Part shown: positions 40,844 to 45,540 of the stretch, one piece after another
Layout: each line of letters begins with the position of its first letter
Numbering within the stretch: position 1 is the stretch's first letter
From: Lachnospiraceae bacterium
Lineage (GTDB): Bacteria; Bacillota; Clostridia; Lachnospirales; Lachnospiraceae
Reading direction: 5' to 3'
NCBI GenBank assembly: GCA_015056885.1
Contig: SVFL01000007.1
Location: forward strand, 1-64,000
DNA length: 64,000 nt
The notes under the pieces: model-generated
Told to the model about the DNA's origin: nothing
What the model saw: the letters and a program-made list of their open reading frames with translations, nothing else
The model's database searches: none
Made by a program: the position numbers and the translations under genes

Positions 40844-42022
40844 TTACTTACAGCCAAACAGTTCTGCTAATTTTTCTTCACGTAATCTTGCGCCGATGAC
40901 GCAGATTTTGCCGGTCACTTCAGGTTTGCCGGTTCTGATTTCATGCTCTTCGGGAACATAATCATAATAAATCCAAGTTCCGTCTTCAGCAGGAACCATG
41001 CCCTTGGCACGCAAAATATCACCATACCAACCACTGTCAAGTTCCTCAAGAATGTGCTCAATCTGCTCCTTGGTGTAGGTATTGGGAGTCTCTACGCCCC
41101 AGCTTCCGAACACTTCGTCTGCATGATGATGGTGATGGTCATGACAACCGCATGAACAGTTCTCACCATGTTCATGATGATGCTCATGATCATGTTCATG
41201 GTGATGGTGCTCGTGACAGCCACATTCCTCATCATGGTCATGGTGGTGATGGTGCTCGTGGCAGCCACATTCCTCATCATGTTCATGATGGTGGTGATGG
41301 TGCTCGTGGTCATGACCACCGCCTCCGCACTCCTCGCCATGCTCATGGTGATGCTCATGATCATGATGATGGTGATGATGCTCGTGCACGCTCTCCAACA
41401 TCTCCTTCATCATATCCTCTAACTTGTCCGCACCCTCAATAGTCTCAAGCACGTCCTTGCCATCCAGCTGTGCCAGAGGTGTTGTGATAATTGTAGCCTT
41501 CTCGTTATGTTCTCTGATAAGCTCTACTGCCAGATTAATCTTATCCTGAGAAAGCTTGTCTGTTCTGCTCAGAATAATGGTTCCGGCATGCTCAATCTGA
41601 TTGATAAAAAACTCACCGAAATTCTTAATATACATCTTACACTTAGATGCATCTACAACAGCAACTGCACTGTTTACCTGTACATCCAATTCAGATGCCA
41701 CATTTTCAACTGCCTTCAACACATCAGAAAGTTTGCCTACACCTGAGGGCTCAATCAACACACGCTCAGGTGCATAAGTATCAATAACTTCCTTCAAAGA
41801 AGTGCCGAAATCGCCTACCAGGGAACAGCAAATACATCCGGAATTCATCTCTTTGATTTCAATTCCCGCCTCTTTAAGGAATCCGCCGTCGATACCGATT
41901 TCGCCAAACTCATTCTCAATCAGAACAGTCTTCGAGCCATCCAGCGCCTCCTTCAACAATTTCTTAATCAGAGTGGTCTTACCCGCTCCTAAAAATCCGC
42001 TTACTACATCAATCTTTGTCAT
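40844..42022 (-). CDS. CobW/COG0523 GTPase with a His/Cys-rich metal-binding insert
   Basis: VVSGFLGAGKTTLIKKLL, SGCICCSL motif, and a long HEHHHHHHDHEHHH...CGCHEHHHH region. Confidence 0.93.
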   Translation of the reverse strand: MTKIDVVSGFLGAGKTTLIKKLLKEALDGSKTVLIENEFGEIGIDGGFLKEAGIEIKEMNSGCICCSLVGDFGTSLKEVIDTYAPERVLIEPSGVGKLSDVLKAVENVASELDVQVNSAVAVVDASKCKMYIKNFGEFFINQIEHAGTIILSRTDKLSQDKINLAVELIREHNEKATIITTPLAQLDGKDVLETIEGADKLEDMMKEMLESVHEHHHHHHDHEHHHEHGEECGGGGHDHEHHHHHHEHDEECGCHEHHHHHDHDEECGCHEHHHHEHDHEHHHEHGENCSCGCHDHHHHHADEVFGSWGVETPNTYTKEQIEHILEELDSGWYGDILRAKGMVPAEDGTWIYYDYVPEEHEIRTGKPEVTGKICVIGARLREEKLAELFGCK

Positions 42023-42119: not shown

Positions 42120-43379
42120 TCATCGACATACCTTCTCTCCCTTTGACCGATACGCATAATACTCATGCACCAGACTCCGATACCCCCACTCCTTCAAGGT
42201 CTCATAACGAACCCGAAAATTCCCTTTGTAATGACGGCCCGTCACCGTATACCGGATATATTGTTGCATATAAGTATCAATTTCCTTAAGCCCTACATCT
42301 GTAGTCAAATTAGGGAAAAACCACCGCTCCCAGGTAAACTCATCCATAAGCATTTCTCCGGATTCCATGTGTTTCTCCGGTTCCCTACATCCGTAAAATT
42401 TGGCATTCATTGCACGAATAAAACCGATTGCAGCCTTCTCAGAAGACAAGTTTTTCTTTCGCCGCCAGCGCATCAAAGCGTTAGCCTTGCGCTTAATTCG
42501 GGCCTTGGTCTTTCGAATGGTGTTGGGTGACAAATCAATCACTCCGTCTCTATAAGAAAATCCCAAAAAAGAGAATGCCTCTCCCGGCGCAGTAACCATC
42601 ACCTTGTCAGGGTTTACTTCAAGCCCAAGTTTTGCAACCTGTTCCCGCAAAACACTCTCATAACACTTTAAATCCTCATAAGTATCCGCAAAAATCAAAA
42701 TATCATCCGAATACCGATAATAGCTTACCCCCAGTTTTTCAAAATAGTAATCTGTCTCCGACAAATATACATTTGCAAAGAAGGGAGAAATCGGTGTTCC
42801 TGCCATAGCTCCATGTTCTGCCACCATCTCCTCGCCTTCATAAATCACACGTTTTTCCCTAAGAATCCTTTCAAAAATCCGGTAAAGTCCGACATCTGTT
42901 CGTTCAACAAATTTTAATTTTTCCAGCAAAATTTCAACATCAATAGAATTGAAATAATCACTGATATCTATTTTCAAACAATATTGCCTGGAAATTCGCC
43001 GGTCTCCTCGAAGTCGCCTCAGTGCATCTTTTACACCATAGCCCCGTCGGAACGCATAACAATTTTGACAAAAAATATCATTATATCGAAATAGATGATA
43101 AGCTATGAACTTTAGCAAAATGCCCTCATCACCATCAAAAGAATAAACCACCCTTTTTTTCCGGCTACCCTCTTTGCTAATCACACTTTTCTTGGGGAAC
43201 TCCATCGGATATTCGCCCCTTTGCCACATCTCACACAATTTTATATAAGCTTTACGCCCGATAAAATCTCGAATTTTCTGTTCCTCCGTCTGCGACAAAT
43301 GCTGGTGCTCTATTTTATAATCCAAGAAAGAAAGCCATGCTTCTTCACAGCAGGCTTCCTCCAAAATACTCTTCATCAT
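42120..43379 (-). CDS. Stand-alone reverse transcriptase (RNA-directed DNA polymerase), class unassigned
   Basis: CYAFRRGYGVKDAL, LKIDISDYFNSID, AGTPISPFFANVYLSETD, YRYSDDILIFA, FSFLGFSY RT motifs; start MMKSILEE at 43379 with AGGAG RBS. Confidence 0.9.
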   Translation of the reverse strand: MMKSILEEACCEEAWLSFLDYKIEHQHLSQTEEQKIRDFIGRKAYIKLCEMWQRGEYPMEFPKKSVISKEGSRKKRVVYSFDGDEGILLKFIAYHLFRYNDIFCQNCYAFRRGYGVKDALRRLRGDRRISRQYCLKIDISDYFNSIDVEILLEKLKFVERTDVGLYRIFERILREKRVIYEGEEMVAEHGAMAGTPISPFFANVYLSETDYYFEKLGVSYYRYSDDILIFADTYEDLKCYESVLREQVAKLGLEVNPDKVMVTAPGEAFSFLGFSYRDGVIDLSPNTIRKTKARIKRKANALMRWRRKKNLSSEKAAIGFIRAMNAKFYGCREPEKHMESGEMLMDEFTWERWFFPNLTTDVGLKEIDTYMQQYIRYTVTGRHYKGNFRVRYETLKEWGYRSLVHEYYAYRSKGEKVCR

Positions 43380-43400
43380 ATCTCCTCTACCTATAAATAT

Positions 43401-43431
43401 CATGAGAAACATGCTTTGCATGTTCCTCATG
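43401..43431 (-). other. 14-bp hairpin just upstream of the RT ribosome-binding site
   Basis: CATGAGAAACATGC-TTT-GCATGTTCCTCATG (+ strand), one mismatch. Confidence 0.75.
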
Positions 43432-43490
43432 ATTTCGCGGTGCTCCTCGAATACTCATATAAACATGGCATTCTCATCGCTACTCGCGAA

Positions 43491-43654
43491 AAAAAGAAAG
43501 AGAAATAACTTTGAAGTAATCAAAGCCGTGCTTGATTACCACCGGACTGAACATGTTTCCGTTGCCCGCAAAACCTACCGAAATCTACTCCGGCAATATG
43601 AAACATGCTTTATCCCCCACGGGCGCAACCAATGTTGCATTTCTCTTTCTTTTT
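43491..43654 (-). ncRNA. Candidate RT-associated structured ncRNA bounded by a 16-bp inverted repeat
   Basis: AAAAAGAAAGAGAAAT (43491-43506) versus ATTTCTCTTTCTTTTT (43639-43654), perfect inverted repeat; inner stem-loops GCAAC/GTTGC, CATGTTTC/GAAACATG, GTAATCAA/TTGATTAC. Confidence 0.5.
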
Positions 43655-43660
43655 GTCAAA

Positions 43661-44188
43661 TTATATATGTACAATCTCTTTCAACTGTTCTCTGATATAT
43701 CCGGTGCGATTCGGAAGTCTTGTGATAAAATGCACATACCCCACACTCTGGCGACCGCAAGCCTCTTTAGCCAAACGAGTGCGCTTACACCAATAATCAT
43801 CGGGATAATCCAGAATAATAATCATCGCTACAGGTATGCCATTATTGTATAATCCATAAGTATAATCCAACGCGCCTGCCTCGGCCCCCATTTCGGAGGA
43901 ACTGATATTCTTGCGAATCTCAATTCTGTCGCCCCATTCCTCAGAAACCACCTTTTCAATTCTCCGTTCCACTACAGCCACTTCTCCGCAACAGTCCTCC
44001 TCTGCTTCGTCCACACTGCTTGCAGCTGCTTTTGCTGTACTATTTGCACTTACGGTTGCAGAACTGCTATTTTTATTTTCTCTGACAGAATCCCTAATAT
44101 TATCTGTTACAGAATCTACCACCTCATCCAAAACTCCCGAAACAATTTTACGTGCTTCTCTTTTTAACAAATTGTTTAAAAAACCCAT
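43661..44188 (-). CDS. Hypothetical protein upstream of the RT leader
   Basis: 175 aa ORF with good start (GGAGAAATTATGGG); C-terminal conserved-looking domain LDYTYGLYNNGIPVAMIIILDYPDDYWCKRTRLAKEAC. Confidence 0.75.
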   Translation of the reverse strand: MGFLNNLLKREARKIVSGVLDEVVDSVTDNIRDSVRENKNSSSATVSANSTAKAAASSVDEAEEDCCGEVAVVERRIEKVVSEEWGDRIEIRKNISSSEMGAEAGALDYTYGLYNNGIPVAMIIILDYPDDYWCKRTRLAKEACGRQSVGYVHFITRLPNRTGYIREQLKEIVHI

Positions 44189-44253
44189 AATTTCTCCTTA
44201 TATAAATTGCCTTAAATTTAAACATCTCAAGCCAAATGAATCTAAACGATTAA

Positions 44254-44282
44254 ATTGTACCAAAAACAGCAAGCAGTGTCAA
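44254..44282 (-). promoter_or_regulatory. Near-consensus sigma-A promoter for the hypothetical-RT unit
   Basis: Minus strand TTGACA (44277-44282), 17-nt spacer, TACAAT (44254-44259). Confidence 0.75.
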
Positions 44283-44308: not shown

Positions 44309-45085
44309 TTATAACACAATTTTTTCCTCAAACCGCGCCTGCATCACATGCCAGGGCATCGCCACCAGTTCTCCTTCTTCATTACCACCACAAATCATGC
44401 CAATAAAATTCCCGTTCACATCATATACCCCACCACCGGACATACCATGCTTAATCTCACATTCAGCCACCATCATATGCTGGGCAAAATCTTCCACATA
44501 AATCCAGCTTTCAGACAACACTCCCTGATAATCTGTCTGTTTACCATCACAATACCCCGAAGCAACTATAACCTCTCCTGCGGTCAGCATATCATAGTTT
44601 GTCTTATCAGTCTCAACCGGCACTGCAACCATCCCCACAGCAATATCTTCCTGCGGTATATACAGAAAGACCAAATCCACGCTTCCTGCTTCCAGCCATG
44701 TTGTACACTCTATCGATATATCCACACAATTCAGCACAATTCGGTCATCATCACTCTTATTATCCAACACATGAGCTGCTGTCGCAATCCAAATGCCATC
44801 CTCACCCACCTGATAAACCACACCGGTTCCGACTGCCTTGCAAGCCCCTGTATCTTTATTCTGCACTTCAATCTCAAAAAGTTCCACATACTCAACAGAT
44901 TGGTCATTTACTAATTCCGAATCCATATTGGAAACCGATAAATCTTCCTGTTGATTCCTATCCACTGTGCTTGCAATCTCATTTTGTCTATTTAATACAA
45001 ATATAAGTGCCACCACCATTACCATCAGCACAAAGAAAACAAACACGCATTGTTTTTTTAGCTGTTTTTCCTTCTTATGTTCCAT
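44309..45085 (-). CDS. Membrane-anchored trypsin-like serine protease
   Basis: GTGVVYQVGEDGIWIATAAHVLD (His), DLVFLYIP (Asp), EIKHGMSGGGVYDVNG (Ser) triad motifs; N-terminal TM. Confidence 0.75.
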   Translation of the reverse strand: MEHKKEKQLKKQCVFVFFVLMVMVVALIFVLNRQNEIASTVDRNQQEDLSVSNMDSELVNDQSVEYVELFEIEVQNKDTGACKAVGTGVVYQVGEDGIWIATAAHVLDNKSDDDRIVLNCVDISIECTTWLEAGSVDLVFLYIPQEDIAVGMVAVPVETDKTNYDMLTAGEVIVASGYCDGKQTDYQGVLSESWIYVEDFAQHMMVAECEIKHGMSGGGVYDVNGNFIGMICGGNEEGELVAMPWHVMQARFEEKIVL

Positions 45086-45185
45086 AGTTCTCCTACACCG
45101 TGTACTCCACATATGTAACTGATTATATAGCAAAACAGACCGAAACCTCGCAAGGCACGGCCTGTTATTCTCATTAATTAGGTGT

Positions 45186-45540
45186 AAGCAAGACGATAAG
45201 CCGGGTTATGTCGTTGGACGATCATCTATCTGGCACGGCTGTTGCCAGCCGCATCTAGCGACCCACCTGAAAGCAGGCCGGGCCGACCTGTCGCTTTCTT
45301 TTTGGTCTTGCTTCGGATGGGGTTTACATGGCTCCGCCCGTTACCGGACGGACGGTAGTCTCTTAAGCTACCTTTCCACCCTTACAGGGGAAATGCGTAG
45401 CATTTCTCCTGCGGTATATTTCTGTTGCACTGGCCTTGGAGTCACCTCCACCGGACGTTATCCGGCATCCTGCCCTATGAAGCCCGGACTTTCCTCACCC
45501 GGACGCTTACGCGCCCGACCGCGATCGTCTGTCTTACTTA
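45186..45540 (-). ncRNA. rnpB: RNase P RNA
   Basis: Minus strand contains GAGGAAAGTCCGGGC and 3' CATAACCCGGCTTATCGTCTT hallmarks; ends approximate. Confidence 0.95.

Follow-up and report, generated by a model that had tools for sequence, protein, structure and literature searches.

The classification of UG/DRT reverse transcriptases (RTs) is reportedly that of Mestre et al. 2022. The class 2 UG/DRT systems that have been characterized so far, namely DRT2 (PMC12039810), DRT9 (PMC12483538), and DRT10 (PMC12632851), bind an adjacent noncoding RNA (ncRNA), part of which they use as the template for repetitive cDNA, and this results in defense. In DRT10, the template loop directly follows a stem-loop (PMC12632851).

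Here, we analyzed a 64,000-nt stretch of DNA from a gut bacterium of the Lachnospiraceae (assembly GCA_015056885.1, contig SVFL01000007.1, positions 1 to 64,000 of the forward strand; hereafter, the window). On the minus strand, a promoter is followed by a 175-aa gene, an ncRNA, and an RT gene that ends at 42120 (Table 1). Like DRT10 (UG17) and DRT9 (UG28), the locus combines an RT with an adjacent structured ncRNA and often a third protein, and its RNA is closed and has a loop beside the last hairpin (PMC12632851, PMC12483538). It differs from them in that the window RT scores only ~100 bits on their profiles, the partner is not a SLATT protein, and neither a poly-U template nor an A-B-A' repeat was found in the ncRNA. 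With DRT2, it shares an adjacent pseudoknotted ncRNA (PMC12039810), but the DRT2 RNA is 280 nt long with a 120-nt template, whereas the RNA described here is about 130 to 200 nt long with no comparable constant template, and the window RT reaches 64 bits on the Drt2 model against a cut-off of 390. We hypothesize, by analogy with the class 2 systems, that loci of this kind provide defense by RNA-linked DNA synthesis, a reading to which we assign a probability of about 0.6.

Table 1. Features of the RT cassette, in minus-strand order.
Feature	Positions in the window	Strand	Evidence or remark
Sigma-70-like promoter, TTGACA-N17-TACAAT	44254..44282	minus	11 of 12 consensus bases; TG ahead of the -10
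Accessory gene, 175 aa, RTasCOG2852-like	43661..44188	minus	N-terminal helix (MGFLxxL), low-complexity linker, C-terminal alpha/beta domain
Complete ncRNA, ~172 nt including U-tract	43487..43658	minus	RF03026; own model R1, 104 bits; folding z = -6.4; overhangs the Rfam match at both ends
Closing stem P0, 5' strand, AAAAAGAAAGAGAAA	43640..43654	minus	Own-partner versus cross-paired duplex; pair types
Small 5' hairpin, GCAAC-AUUG-GUUGC	43625..43638	minus	
Pseudoknot 5' strand, GCCCGU	43619..43624	minus	Covariation
P1/P2 stem-loop, apical insert of variable length	43544..43617	minus	Double changes in 12 of 13 (P1) and 4 of 4 (P2) pairs
Pseudoknot 3' strand, GCGGGC, in P2 loop	43564..43569	minus	Covariation
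Hairpin P3	43516..43539	minus	
Conserved unpaired segment at the P3-P0 junction, candidate template, UUCAAAGUUA	43506..43515	minus	Column conservation; position
Closing stem P0, 3' strand, continuing into the U-tract, UUUCUCUUUCUUUUU	43491..43505	minus	Duplex permutations; pair types
UG26 RT, 419 aa, YSDD catalytic motif	42120..43379	minus	PADLOC RT_UG26, E = 6.7e-159; AlphaFold model, pLDDT 92.7

The reverse transcriptase and its genomic site

The initial annotation described an RT with a YSDD motif that it could not assign to any named class. The motif is present at residues 223 to 226 of a protein that matches RVT_1 (2e-23), and a class could be named: the PADLOC profile RT_UG26 gave 527 bits over profile positions 2 to 397 of 398, against 120 bits for the runner-up, a generic RT profile, and 108 to 101 bits for the next specific classes (UG27, UG17 (DRT10), UG4, and Drt9). 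On these profile scores, the assignment to class UG26 is close to certain. The RT fell below every cut-off of the retron, group II, Drt2, Drt3a, Drt4, Drt5, and AbiA models. Read from its first ATG, the open reading frame spans 42120 to 43430; the ribosome-binding site AGGAGA followed by ATGATG supports 43379, not 43430, as the likely start. The fold neighbors of the RT model were GsI-IIC and G2L4 RT first and then DRT9 and DRT2. The relation of UG26 to class 2 is one of profile scores and fold neighbors, and group II RTs are among the single best relatives by sequence as well as by fold. No second RT was found in the assembly (86% complete), where the UG26 RT is the sole one detected.

The near-consensus promoter proposed upstream of the 175-aa gene was confirmed and ranked at the top of the 11 promoter-like sites in a scan in which shuffled sequence averages six. 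A second candidate just 5' of the window ncRNA (TTGACA at ~43659) is not claimed, as it has a poor -10 element and is absent from accessory-bearing relatives.

Across the genus, rpoD, trmK-like, udk-like, RNase P RNA, trypsin-like gene, cobW, and cobW2 follow one another in a conserved order. In the window, 2.3 kb separate the trypsin-like gene from cobW, but relatives such as L159, L161, L162, L164, L166, L168, and L171 have only ~50 to 200 nt there, and the cobW promoter is retained on the downstream side of the site. Since the same site is empty in relatives, the accessory gene, ncRNA, and RT must have been acquired or lost together. In another species (L163:5155-9940), the site is occupied by unrelated genes that look sugar-transport-like by eye, and the gap may receive insertions repeatedly. 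Neither a transposase nor a boundary repeat was identified at the cassette, and its immediate neighbors in the window do not form a defense island but are housekeeping genes. The 274-aa trypsin-like gene (44309-45133), which gave weak RT-Protease matches, was considered as a partner and rejected, being conserved at the site in RT-less relatives and absent from other UG26 loci. The rpoD-cobW neighborhood also holds a class A RNase P RNA (310 bits; 45181-45540, minus strand). At 40844-42022, a CobW-family GTPase contains HHHHHHDHEHHHEHGEEC repeats in a histidine-rich stretch of great length that probably binds metal, and a second CobW-type gene follows.

The group II likeness raises the alternative that the enzyme is a domesticated group II-like RT that serves DNA repair or another cell process instead of defense. 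GsI-IIC and G2L4 RT are the closest solved structures by fold, and the group II model gave 115 bits; however, its equivalog cut-off of 300 was not reached, and no group II intron RNA scored above the Rfam threshold in the window, in line with the original view that no flanking intron is present and that the RT does not belong to a mobile intron. The patchy occurrence and cassette-like insertion of the locus, its dedicated ncRNA, and the TIR fusion of its partner (see below) also speak against such a role, which we regard as quite unlikely.

Architecture and linkage of the ncRNA

The stretch of ~280 nt between the 175-aa gene and the RT had been annotated as structured and noncoding, and the analysis agreed: it contains a match to the orphan Rfam family RF03026 (RT-5 RNA) at 43502-43628, which scores 56.1 bits where 45.7 is the gathering score (E = 3e-8), and none of 200 shuffles was as stable as the native sequence (z-score of -6.4). 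RT-5 also scored above its gathering threshold in eight of nine sampled UG26 loci. The full ncRNA measures ~170 nt, compared with the 104 nt of the model scored by Rfam, and the 5' strand of the closing stem P0 and most of the 5' hairpin fall outside that model. A pseudoknot, in which the 5' segment GCCYGY pairs with GCRGGC in the P2 loop, is not part of the scored RT-5 structure either.

Covariation supports the internal helices. In P1 and P2 together, double changes were observed at 16 of 17 pairs, a level that was reached in 0 of 500 shuffles. For the pseudoknot, 99.6% of cells were paired and double compensatory changes occurred at all six pairs among 44 distinct sequences; this covariation is not circular because the alignment was fitted to a pseudoknot-free structure.

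The closing stem P0 pairs a purine-rich 5' strand, upstream of the first position of the Rfam model, with the conserved pyrimidine tail of the ncRNA, which forms the 3' strand, and the helix has a median of 16 pairs. Two locus sets, which together cover about 130 relatives, were used; they partly overlap (L060 and L178, for instance, are one contig). In the first set, the duplex formed by a locus's own strands had a mean energy of -19.4 kcal/mol versus -11.6 when strands were exchanged between loci; in the second set (79 loci, including Bacteroidales), the values were -20.3 and -13.8 kcal/mol. In both sets, 0 of 5000 permutations were as low, although these permutation counts are inflated by the relatedness of the loci. 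The helix is kept across dissimilar sequences, such as GAAAGAGAAA/UUUCUCUUUC in the window, AAGCAGCCAAA/UUUGGCUGCUU in L080, and GAAAAAGGGGA/UCCCCUUUUUC in Bacteroidales.

P3 and P0 are separated by an unpaired stretch that starts with UUYAA, where every column except Y carries 1.6 to 2.0 bits and neighboring columns mostly carry less than 0.5 bits. A template repeat of the DRT10 A-B-A' type was sought in the 3' tail and rejected; the longest match averaged 3.42 against 3.41 for cross-paired loci, with 947 of 2000 permutations as high. Between the ncRNA and the RT start (43381-43430), we also observed a perfect small hairpin, AACATGC-AAA-GCATGTT, and a sequence in the same region, AAAGCATGTTTC, that duplicates a 12-mer of the ncRNA P1 arm.

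Nine sequences served to build a covariance model, which detected the ncRNA in 45 of 53 first-set sources and in 79 of the 80 named-genome UG26 loci of the second set, so that the conserved adjacent ncRNA typical of class 2 systems is present at UG26 loci. One copy was found in the window's genome. The same model did not detect the ncRNA in a divergent UG26 branch (L089, L090, L091, and L120). In that branch, the RT of L089 (3656-7471) shares an open frame of 1271 aa with an N-terminal protein that looks radical-SAM-like by eye.

In most loci, the ncRNA ends within ~160 nt of the RT start, and it ends in a U-tract or terminator, as would suit a cis-regulatory leader of the RT gene, whether attenuator or riboswitch. 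The gap is larger in L086 (0.3 kb), L060 (0.5 kb), L108 (1.2 kb), and L063 (2.3 kb), however, and the global closing stem also counts against a leader. In addition, many accessory-less loci have a TATAAT 26 to 28 nt 5' of the ncRNA core, and the transcript would therefore start at the closing stem. Because it lies far from the RT in some loci and has its own -10 element in many that lack the accessory, the ncRNA is best viewed as a separate functional molecule; of the "structured leader" in the initial annotation, the structure stands but the word leader says too little, and we consider regulation in cis highly improbable.

The accessory protein and distribution of the module

The gene annotated as an uncharacterized 175-aa gene is real, but its family is already in PADLOC as RTasCOG2852. 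That profile matched 19 of 28 members of the accessory family (best E, 2.4e-68). For the window protein, the match was weak (0.016); it shares 42% identity with the L060 accessory and matched the iterated family profile over its full length (8.9e-52). By these sequence comparisons, it is a divergent member of the RTasCOG2852 family.

The accessory model had a pLDDT of 79.9, rising above 90 from about residue 70 on. In the model, the C-terminal domain runs in the order helix, three strands, helix, strand, which fits a PD-(D/E)XK core. Fold matches were weak (best E, 0.17; best probability, 0.60, for VRR_NUC) but leaned toward PD-(D/E)XK nucleases, with restriction enzymes also among them. The catalytic residues of that fold (D...(D/E)xK) are not conserved in the accessory. 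The protein may be a noncatalytic, nuclease-like adaptor.

With the iterated profile, the accessory was found upstream of the RT in 31 first-set loci and in 65 of 80 second-set loci; in one of these (L247), it lies downstream and bears a zinc ribbon. Among the 392 order genomes, 15 carried it, each of them UG26-positive with the match adjacent to the RT, and on that ground it is dedicated to UG26. Depending on the set, one fifth to two fifths of loci had no detected accessory, and it may therefore be dispensable. In L080 (2945-5575), the accessory domain forms the C-terminus of an 876-aa TIR_2+TPR protein encoded directly upstream of the ncRNA and RT. Two further arrangements were observed: at L215:2-2107, an EF-G-like frame runs into the accessory domain, either as a real fusion or through misassembly (missing stop, contig edge), and at L087:8477-11065 (counted with the RT on the plus strand), a zinc-ribbon, TIR-like protein (by eye) is encoded 3' of the UG26 RT.

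A retron also comprises an RT, an ncRNA, and a partner protein. The locus could accordingly be pictured as an msDNA antitoxin system in which the closing stem at the ncRNA ends is a1/a2, the RT makes msDNA, and the accessory, fused in one case to a known effector domain, is a restrained toxin. Against this picture, the retron RT models were far under cut-off (St85, 55 bits against 235), the NAXXH motif sought in the RT is absent, RT-5 is the only Rfam match at the locus, and no long msd hairpin was recognized. The RT is thus no canonical retron RT, as had been supposed from its motifs, and we think a retron-like mode very unlikely.

Searches at several taxonomic ranges outlined the distribution of UG26. 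At a loose threshold, 48 of 99 near genomes had a profile match, which was a strong full-class match in ~16. With a limit of E <= 1e-60, matches were obtained in 26 of 392 order genomes and in 16 of 391 class genomes. The cassette is missing from many genomes of the same genus, and the nearest relatives are Lachnospiraceae MAGs. A scan of named-genome contigs with a single RT protein as query gave no match; with an alignment as query, at least 498 loci were obtained, of which 80 were kept as the second set. These come mostly from Lachnospiraceae and other Clostridia, also from Bacteroidales/Prevotella, with single MAGs labeled Erysipelotrichaceae, Acidobacteriota, and Bifidobacteriaceae. Carriage by phages or plasmids was considered and rejected, since tblastn of phage and plasmid collections gave only distant RTs (at most ~32% identity). 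In viral contigs, the best RT had 34% identity over most of the protein, and no ncRNA was found in the four viral RT loci tested.

Taken together, the sequence data make it close to certain that the accessory, ncRNA, and RT form a linked module across Lachnospiraceae, other Clostridia, and Bacteroidales. The domesticated, DRT-like layout of promoter, accessory gene, ncRNA, and RT that was first proposed for the window thus holds up. Homologs without a conserved leader or neighbor had been named as counterevidence to it; both proved to be conserved.

Proposed function of UG26 loci

For defense by RNA-linked DNA synthesis, we envision that the RT would bind the RT-5 RNA as a dedicated cofactor and, upon phage infection, would make repetitive cDNA from one of its short unpaired stretches, as the class 2 DRT enzymes do. 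The best guess for the template, made by position, is the UUYAAN~5 segment between P3 and P0. The accessory could then sense the cDNA product or the RT-RNA complex and relay the signal to an effector, and the outcome would be abortive antiphage immunity. We favor RNA-templated cDNA because class 2 DRTs copy a neighboring ncRNA and because UUYAA follows P3 as the DRT10 loop follows its stem-loop. A more specific proposal, which we put forward tentatively, is that UG26 represents a further mechanistic type of RNA-templated DRT, in which a pseudoknotted, stem-closed RNA offers an 8- to 10-nt UUYAAN~5 template and an adaptor with a dead nuclease fold reads either this DNA or the complex and turns on effectors that are interchangeable, one example being the TIR protein to which it is fused in L080.

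Alternatively, the ncRNA might be a structural or allosteric cofactor that controls assembly, with the RT making untemplated DNA in the manner of AbiK or DRT1. The ncRNA tail has no obvious repeat or alignment sequence, the strongest ncRNA conservation is structural, and the DRT9 RNA also drives oligomerization (PMC12483538), all of which would suit such a role. Untemplated synthesis has, however, been described for class 1 RTs (PMC13174585), the top DRT profiles here (UG17 and Drt9) belong to systems with templating RNAs, and a short unpaired segment shows conservation where a template would be expected. We therefore judge untemplated synthesis to be unlikely and retain the RNA-templated reading.

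The initial annotation presented the locus as an undescribed system, which it is not. The RT class UG26, the RT-5 RNA, and RTasCOG2852 are all catalogued, and we found them only as separate entries; the locus is a member of a candidate-defense class, and the window copy is an ordinary UG26 member apart from its divergent accessory. In the searchable literature, with most subscription papers beyond reach, we found no experimental or functional study of UG26, RT-5, or DRT11-13, and no paper naming the RT-5 RNA together with a reverse transcriptase; one survey mentions UG26 in passing. The link between UG26 and RT-5 may already have been noted in the UG classification or structured-RNA discovery papers.

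What is new here is the joining of three catalogue entries into one conserved module, together with the full architecture of the ncRNA, including its long closing stem and six-pair pseudoknot, and a concrete template candidate. The mechanism of the UG26 RT class thereby becomes directly testable, and if UG26 does defend its hosts, this would reveal how widely bacterial RTs rely on ncRNA-templated repeat synthesis.
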